64,000 bases of DNA from Negativicoccus massiliensis (GTDB lineage: Bacteria; Bacillota; Negativicutes; Veillonellales; Negativicoccaceae), in NCBI GenBank assembly GCA_900155405.1, contig LT700188.1, positions 558,001-622,000 on the forward strand, given 5' to 3'. The notes under the pieces are model-generated. The model saw nothing but the letters and a program-made list of their open reading frames with translations, was not told the origin of the DNA and did not search any database. The translations under genes and the position numbers were made by a program. Below are positions 39,466 to 41,242 of this stretch, in pieces (positions within the stretch are counted from its first letter, which is position 1; the number at the start of each line of letters is the position of its first letter).

Positions 39466-39488
39466 AAAAAAAGAGGCTTGCGCCTCTT
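39466..39488 (-). terminator. Intrinsic terminator after the NlpC/P60 gene
   Basis: AAGAGGC / GCCTCTT with a TTGC-type loop followed by seven T residues on the minus strand. It overlaps the stop codon of the wall hydrolase gene. Confidence 0.85.
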
Positions 39489-40146
39489 AGATTAACCGTT
39501 TTGCTCCCACGTAGCAATCGCTCCAGTAGCCCTCCGACAAGCTGTCGATGACTACGCCGCGACTTGATGTGGAACTGATAAAGCGATCTCCTCCCAGGTA
39601 AATACCCGAGTGCGACACGCCGTCCGTATATGTCGAGAAAAAAACCAGGTCGCCCGGCCGCATCTGACTCCGACTCACACTGTGGCCCATTTGGTATTGT
39701 TCATCGGCCGACCGTGGCAATACCAATCCGGCCGCTTTGGCGGCAAACTGAACGAATCCCGAACAATCAAAGCCGCTGGGAGTAGAACCTCCAAAAACAT
39801 ACGGCACACCGATATATTCCTGCGCGACGGAGATCAGCCGCCGTACCAGCATCGTCGAAAAATCACCACGGCTGGTCGGTATATCGCGGCTCAACAACGC
39901 GCGATAAGTAGCCGGACCTACCAAACCGTCCGCTTCCAAACCATGCGCCGTCTGAAATTCCCGAATGGCATCTTCTGTGGCCGGACCGTATACGCCGTCC
40001 GCTTCCAAATGGTACCCTAACGTTCCCAAGCGATGCTGAATCGTCGAGATATCTTCACCGATATCTCCCGGGTGATACGTGGCCCCTACCGCCATCGGTA
40101 CTACCAAAAACATCGCCATACAAGCCCAGTGTCGTATTCCCGTCAT
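39487..40146 (-). CDS. NlpC/P60 cell-wall endopeptidase with peptidoglycan-binding domain
   Basis: A secreted peptidoglycan endopeptidase of about 219 residues. It has an N-terminal signal peptide (HWACMAMFLVVPMAVGA), a peptidoglycan-binding domain 1 (IQHRLGTLGYHLEADGVYGP, about residues 30-85), and the NlpC/P60 catalytic domain with Cys in FDCSGFVQFA and His in VSHSGIYLGGD. The open frame reaches 40263, but that part is a riboswitch. The AAGGGAG site favours the ATG at 40146, with 40149 as a close alternative. It is preceded by a c-di-AMP riboswitch aptamer, so wall hydrolysis is probably tied to c-di-AMP. Confidence 0.93.
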   Translation of the reverse strand: MTGIRHWACMAMFLVVPMAVGATYHPGDIGEDISTIQHRLGTLGYHLEADGVYGPATEDAIREFQTAHGLEADGLVGPATYRALLSRDIPTSRGDFSTMLVRRLISVAQEYIGVPYVFGGSTPSGFDCSGFVQFAAKAAGLVLPRSADEQYQMGHSVSRSQMRPGDLVFFSTYTDGVSHSGIYLGGDRFISSTSSRGVVIDSLSEGYWSDCYVGAKRLI

Positions 40147-40156
40147 CATGCTCCCT

Positions 40157-40264
40157 TCCGCCTGCGAGGTTAGCTGCCGGGTTCGGCCAAGAGCTGACCG
40201 TCTTTTGCAAGATACACCCCGAAAACATTTGGTTCCCCCGCGCGCATATGCGCTTCGGCACACC
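40157..40264 (-). promoter_or_regulatory. c-di-AMP riboswitch (ydaO-yuaA type)
   Basis: The minus strand shows the conserved ydaO aptamer landmarks in order: GTGTGCCGAAG (5' strand of P1), GCGGGGGAACCAAA, TCGGGGTGTATC, CCGAACCCGGCAGCTAACC and CTCGCAGGCGG (3' strand of P1). The 3' end of the aptamer lies only a few bases before the GGAAGGGAG ribosome site of the wall hydrolase gene, and no terminator hairpin follows, so control through ribosome access is the likely mechanism. The 5' part lies directly after the glycosyltransferase stop codon. The family is known to bind c-di-AMP and often controls cell-wall hydrolases. Confidence 0.9.
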
Positions 40265-40278
40265 CTTGTGTCCTGTCG

Positions 40279-41214
40279 TTAATGTCTCGTTTTCTGATTC
40301 GCCGTACCGCGCAACCAATACAGAGGTCGATCCTTTACCTCCGCAAAAATGCGCCCGATATACTCCCCGATAATTCCCAAAAAGATCAACTGCAAGCCGC
40401 CGAAAAGCAACATCATCACAGCAAGCGTGGCCCAGCCGGGAACCGCTTCCAGGAAATAATACTTAATCAACAGCACATAGATGATCAAAAGCAAGCTGCC
40501 GATGCCTGACAACACTCCCACATAGAGAGCCATACGCAGCGGCAACGTCGAATATGAAGTAATTCCATCCAAGGCGAACCGCACCATCTTGCGCAACGAA
40601 AATTTACTTTCGCCGGCATAGCGCGCCGGTGCGCGGAATGTAATTTGCGTTTGCCGATAGCCGATATCGCTTACCAGGCCGCGGATAAATCGCGCCTTTT
40701 CGCGAAACAGCAACAAGCTGTCCGCCACTTTGCGATCAATCAGGCGAAAATCGGAACCGCCTTCGGTAATCTGCACTTGGGAAATAGAATTAATAAAACG
40801 ATAGTAGAGTTTCGATGTCCATTTTTTGAACGCACCGACATTGGCGGTCGAAAGCCGTACCGTCTGCACCACTTCATAACCGTCATACCATTTATCCAGC
40901 AAGTCCGGTATCATCGTCGGCGGATGCTGCATGTCTCCATCCATGGTAACCACCGCGTCGCCGCGAGCATGATCCAGACCGCAGGTGAGTGCGGTTTGAT
41001 GTCCGAAATTACGCGCCAAAATAAAAGCTGTCACACGGGCATCCCGTTCCGCAAGCTCCGTTAAAATCAACGGTGTGCGATCACTTGAGCCGTCATCTAC
41101 AAATAAGAACTCAAATGATTCATCACGATGCGCAACCACTTCGCATAACGCATCGTAAAAGTGCAATATATTGTCCTCTTCATTGAAAAAAGGAACAACG
41201 ATTGAAATCAGCAT
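40279..41214 (-). CDS. Glycosyltransferase family 2, polyprenyl-phosphate sugar transferase type
   Basis: A GT2 enzyme of 311 residues: the nucleotide-sugar binding IVVPFFNEEDNI, DDGSSD, and DXD-like TMDGDMQHPP motifs, then a DFRLID and a RFIRGLVSD region, and two C-terminal transmembrane helices (about 230-255 and 263-290). This layout fits GtrB/DPM1-like enzymes that load a sugar on undecaprenyl phosphate for cell-surface glycosylation. The frame is open to 41226, but the GGTGG site and family start fit ATG 41214. The wall hydrolase with its riboswitch follows directly. The sugar is unknown. Confidence 0.88.
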   Translation of the reverse strand: MLISIVVPFFNEEDNILHFYDALCEVVAHRDESFEFLFVDDGSSDRTPLILTELAERDARVTAFILARNFGHQTALTCGLDHARGDAVVTMDGDMQHPPTMIPDLLDKWYDGYEVVQTVRLSTANVGAFKKWTSKLYYRFINSISQVQITEGGSDFRLIDRKVADSLLLFREKARFIRGLVSDIGYRQTQITFRAPARYAGESKFSLRKMVRFALDGITSYSTLPLRMALYVGVLSGIGSLLLIIYVLLIKYYFLEAVPGWATLAVMMLLFGGLQLIFLGIIGEYIGRIFAEVKDRPLYWLRGTANQKTRH

Positions 41215-41242
41215 TTCTACCACCAAACACTACTATGTTTTC

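Follow-up and report, generated by a model that had tools for sequence, protein, structure and literature searches.

The closest described system is the c-di-AMP riboswitch of C. glutamicum nlpC (cg2402), which reporters showed to be an OFF switch, probably translational, and for which a pseudoknot between CTCC and the GGAG of the ribosome site was suggested by the authors (PMC9960051). In the same aptamer family, the solved T. tengcongensis RNA (4QLM) contains a loop-to-3'-tail pseudoknot (PMC5393176); from the sequence printed there, we read the two strands as the loop CUCCUUC and its complement in the 3' tail, GAAGGAG. B. subtilis ydaO/kimA works by an intrinsic terminator, and ydaO-type leaders lacking a canonical terminator precede wall hydrolases in Streptomyces (PMC8079986, PMC10117811). 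A 2024 review places ydaO in the docking group of riboswitches (PMC10907184). Our literature search for a c-di-AMP riboswitch in Negativicutes found no paper.

The locus described here, from Negativicoccus massiliensis, shares with C. glutamicum nlpC (PMC9960051) an RF00379-type aptamer, an NlpC/P60 target and the lack of a canonical terminator, and translational OFF control would be a further likeness. It belongs to another phylum, however, and its riboswitch has a glycosyltransferase gene on one side and nlpC on the other, whereas the C. glutamicum nlpC opens its operon. The loop-to-3'-tail pseudoknot would be common to this RNA, B. subtilis ydaO/kimA and the T. tengcongensis RNA (4QLM, PMC5393176), but here the tail strand coincides with the ribosome site, in place of the terminator-based output of B. 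subtilis. The Streptomyces leaders likewise precede wall hydrolases, but they are found in another phylum and termination has been reported for one of them, rpfA. As in the docking or occlusion riboswitches preQ1-III and cobalamin (PMC10907184), which differ in ligand and aptamer, we propose a ligand-stabilised pairing between aptamer and ribosome site. We consider it likely that the locus is a c-di-AMP riboswitch situated between two genes, probably within one transcript, and that high c-di-AMP turns nlpC translation off by pairing of the P6 loop with the ribosome site; ligand binding by this RNA, the OFF direction and the shared transcript are what we infer.

The window, that is, the whole 64-kb stretch of DNA analysed, was compared with Rfam using cmscan, and four matches exceeded the gathering scores: an RNase P class A RNA (20008-19670, minus strand, 279.7 bits), a 6S RNA (57691-57533, minus strand, 72.8 bits), one tRNA and the c-di-AMP (ydaO/yuaA) family RF00379. 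The RF00379 match scored 80.6 bits (gathering score, 38 bits; E 3.8e-17) and covered the complete model, positions 1-134. The preliminary description had read the hallmark ydaO-yuaA blocks on the minus strand and named an Infernal comparison as the check; the significant full-model match, in which P1, P2 and P6 are all present, as is the conserved CAGCUAACCUCGC core, bears this reading out (Table 1). The interval given there, 40157-40264, does contain a real aptamer but cuts off the 3' pseudoknot strand; about ten more bases are needed at the 3' end, because the model takes in the tail with the ribosome site. Minimum-energy folding of the leader did not recover the aptamer (z +1.2), and such plain folding is uninformative here because the RNA is ligand-dependent and pseudoknotted.

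Table 1. Positions of the riboswitch, its helices and the neighbouring genes in the window
Feature	Position	Strand	Basis
c-di-AMP riboswitch aptamer, including the 3' pseudoknot strand	40146..40270	-	RF00379 cmscan match
P1 5' strand, UGCC (partner GGCG, 40162-40159)	40257..40260	-	cmscan alignment and coordinates
P1 3' strand, GGCG (last G is the first base of GGAAGGGAG)	40159..40162	-	cmscan alignment
P2, GCGGGG / CCUCGC	40241-40236 / 40169-40164	-	cmscan alignment
P6, GGUC / GGCC	40199-40196 / 40188-40185	-	cmscan alignment
Pseudoknot 5' strand, GCUCUU, in the P6 loop	40189..40194	-	6 contiguous pairs with 40155-40150
Pseudoknot 3' strand, GGGAGC, contains the ribosome-site core GGGAG	40150..40155	-	pairing with the P6 loop
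Shine-Dalgarno core, AAGGGAG	40151..40157	-	GGAAGGGAGCA pairs with the 16S 3' end, -12.0 kcal/mol
nlpC, secreted PG_binding_1 and NlpC/P60 hydrolase, 219 aa from ATG 40146 (220 aa from ATG 40149)	39487..40146	-	Pfam
Glycosyltransferase family 2 gene, upstream	40279..41226	-	PF00535, 109.5 bits
Intrinsic-terminator-like hairpin, nearest in the gene direction, 3' of nlpC	39471..39488	-	AAGAGGCGCAAGCCTCTT followed by TTTTT

The product of the next gene begins like a signal peptide and carries the domains NLPC_P60 (PF00877, 111.9 bits) and PG_binding_1 (PF01471, 66.6 bits), confirming the earlier assignment of the target as an NlpC/P60 wall hydrolase. On the other side, the TAA of the glycosyltransferase gene ends at 40279, 18 bases ahead of P1; the riboswitch had been described as beginning directly behind this stop codon. 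A sigma-70 scan returned 8 promoter-like sites, against 8.1 expected from shuffles, and none between the glycosyltransferase gene and nlpC, which fits a shared transcript without proving it. The order glycosyltransferase, riboswitch, NlpC/P60 recurs at nine loci in four genera and two families, the window included (L001, L003, L005, L006 and L008-L012), and in L003 the glycosyltransferase stop codon stands directly ahead of P1. The glycosyltransferase and nlpC are thus probably on the same transcript, and the previously suggested place of the riboswitch inside a longer transcript holds to the extent that sequence can tell.

The ribosome site GGAAGGGAG (40159-40151, minus strand) is followed by two in-frame ATGs, at 40149 and 40146. 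The second has the better spacing and corresponds to the single ATG of a relative from the same family, L005, which lies 4 bases past GGAG. The nlpC frame is also open upstream through the aptamer as far as a GTG at 40263 (40263-39487, minus strand), so that automatic annotation could set the protein start too early. Less than 20 bases separate P1 from the start, and no terminator-like hairpin was found between the aptamer and the nlpC start (40163 to 40146), in agreement with the preliminary description; the nearest one lies beyond nlpC. The locus therefore does not have the intrinsic terminator between aptamer and gene that characterizes terminator-type ydaO switches. Since a terminator has no room there, the locus is best read as an OFF switch acting on translation, and the probable translational control put forward before stands as far as the sequence goes.

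How the aptamer would reach the ribosome site is the point on which two translational readings part. The 3' strand of P1 had been placed a few bases before the ribosome site; it is indeed near, but the last G of P1 is already the first base of GGAAGGGAG, and translation could be turned off by a ligand-stabilised P1 close to the site, with no part for a pseudoknot. The ribosome site is, however, likely not just adjacent to P1 but part of the aptamer's pseudoknot as well, as its 3' strand, a feature absent from the earlier account. In the window RNA, the loop AGCUCUU and the tail GGAAGGGAGC can form GCUCUU/GGGAGC, a helix of six pairs (4 Watson-Crick and 2 G-U). This helix is short and on its own does not exceed chance (p 0.26 by tail shuffling), which leaves some room for the P1-based explanation, and we infer the pseudoknot in the window RNA itself from its relatives.

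RF00379 elements were found in all 4 genomes of the family that were compared, 11 of 61 of the order, 131 of 250 in the class sample and 78 of 119 in the phylum sample. The class set comprised 124 loci, in 123 of which the core could be placed, and 105 had a distinct loop and tail. At 64 of the 123 loci, spread over 22 families, the next gene encodes a protein closely related to the NlpC of the window (phmmer, above 150 bits). A domain scan identified other targets as well, including a 3D-domain protein (L026) and, at L021, a DapB-like protein: this riboswitch precedes a match to DapB (dihydrodipicolinate reductase) and has its ribosome site in the pseudoknot, and the leaders and gene starts of L024, L030 and L031 are near-identical to those of L021.

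A first loop-tail test, which allowed long gapped duplexes, detected nothing significant (energy z -1.4), because the segments took in P6 and neighbouring helices. The test was then limited to gap-free helices formed by precisely the P6 loop; as the method had been changed after a null result, controls with shuffled tails, with a window further downstream and with genus- and family-thinned sets were added. Across the 105 distinct class aptamers, the helix of a loop with its own tail scored 14.1, against 12.7 for swapped partners (z 6.8; 0 of 20,000 permutations), and the scores for shuffled tails and for the window further downstream were 10.9 and 8.3, respectively. With one locus per genus, the signal persisted for all loci (z 5.5; median p 0.0005, the lowest value attainable with 2,000 permutations) and for the nlpC orthologues (z 3.2; median p 0.0015). 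With one locus per family, the median p was 0.0017 for all loci, and the covariation was not significant for the nlpC orthologues alone (median p 0.085); some relatedness among the loci survives the permutations. Compensated helices occur among the nlpC orthologues, for example UCUCG/CGAGA and UCUCA/UGAGA. Purine-rich ribosome sites pair readily with pyrimidine-rich loops, so that swapped pairs, too, reach fairly high scores; for this reason our argument rests on the covariation test.

Overlap was scored when the best helix had at least 4 pairs, its tail strand shared at least 3 bases with the Shine-Dalgarno match and the start lay within 75 bases. On this definition, the pseudoknot strand overlapped the Shine-Dalgarno sequence in 76 of the 105 distinct class aptamers; terminator-like hairpins were detected in 5 of the 105 by the stricter scan and in 15 by the looser one. 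In the phylum sample of 29, overlap was scored in 3 and terminators, by the stricter scan, in 20. Because loci had been picked by score, these proportions apply to the sample and not to whole taxa. Among the nlpC orthologues, 42 of 55 distinct aptamers (48 of 64 by locus) showed the overlap, and 18 of the 22 families contributed at least one such locus; the other 13 distinct aptamers failed as scored, some of them perhaps owing to unusual start codons. These comparisons suggest that the ribosome site is folded into the aptamer's own pseudoknot, which had been a suggestion in C. glutamicum and is now backed by comparison within another class.

The relative L005 (1501-1627) bears on the role of P1. 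All four of its P1 pairs are non-standard, and it still matches RF00379 with 69.4 bits. Despite the broken P1, its loop UGCUCU pairs with GGAGCA and the gene arrangement is kept. Together with the class-wide loop-tail covariation, this argues against P1 proximity as the mechanism, which we regard as unlikely. L005 also suggests that P1 can be dispensable where the pseudoknot is the output, although this is a single genome and the aptamer could be decaying. The upstream glycosyltransferase frame runs into the L005 aptamer and has its stop codon inside it. A wider generalization, which we offer tentatively and would not ourselves expect to hold, is that the nlpC riboswitch of the class is an integrated translational form in which the ribosome-site pseudoknot, not P1, acts as the switch; in L005, where P1 is lost, translation of the glycosyltransferase frame might then influence how the aptamer folds.

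Control at the mRNA level, in which c-di-AMP would act ahead of nlpC through decay or through termination that depends on Rho or on pausing, appears slightly less probable again than the P1-based reading. Premature termination has a precedent in the S. coelicolor rpfA leader, which has no canonical terminator (PMC10117811; discussed in PMC9960051), but at this locus no intrinsic terminator separates the aptamer from the nlpC start, and the transcript level of the C. glutamicum nlpC-riboswitch reporter was unchanged by c-di-AMP (PMC9960051). It is very improbable that the aptamer is degenerate or inactive, with its RF00379 score kept and switching lost: P1 has only four pairs and the default fold lacks the aptamer, but the match reaches 80.6 bits with the conserved core intact, and the riboswitch is kept before nlpC orthologues in 22 families.

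In the favoured pseudoknot mechanism, the P6 loop and the 3' tail would not be stably joined without ligand, and the ribosome site AAGGGAG would be open. With c-di-AMP bound, the aptamer would close, the P6 loop GCUCUU would pair with GGGAGC and the ribosome site would be buried. Folded without constraints, however, the RNA prefers a structure other than the aptamer, with most of the ribosome site base-paired, and in the absence of ligand the site may thus be less than fully open.

The genome, a single contig of 1,360,589 bases, encodes one DAC domain protein, which passes the cut-off of the CdaA equivalog TIGR00159 (261.3 bits; cut-off, 188.8), with a YbbR-domain gene directly 3' of the CdaA gene, and a GdpP-type protein (GGDEF_GdpP, DHH and DHHA1). 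It contains two RF00379 elements, the window locus and L002, so that a writer, an eraser and two RNA readers are encoded. Judged by these genes, the organism would both make and break down c-di-AMP, and the presence of CdaA and GdpP lends support to the previously proposed link between c-di-AMP and wall cleavage. The second element, L002 (G000:C1:982506-982631, minus strand), precedes a gene for an AA_permease_2 protein, whose K_trans match is weak and below the cut-off; we read the product as a KimA-like transporter. The transporter-type elements L002, L004 and L007 have a different pseudoknot, GACCUUAU/GUAAGGUC and variants, with the tail strand off the Shine-Dalgarno site. In L002, the tail folds into a hairpin that uses the pseudoknot strand and, once this strand is blocked, into one enclosing part of GGGAGG; L004 then gives the same hairpin as L002 and L007 a different one. 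This modelled refolding of the L002 tail looks like a strand exchange, the energy differences being small.

Neither the class of RNA nor its association with this gene nor control at translation was new, which limits the surprise of these results. What the comparison adds is support at the sequence level for a mechanism, a pseudoknot with the ribosome site, that in the literature cited had been no more than a suggestion for C. glutamicum; this mechanism predicts the outcome of compensatory mutants. For the organism, it means that in a very small genome (1.36 Mb) the only NlpC/P60 hydrolase found, the single NLPC_P60 match being the nlpC studied here, would be under a c-di-AMP riboswitch, and that the gene for a KimA-like transporter carries the second.
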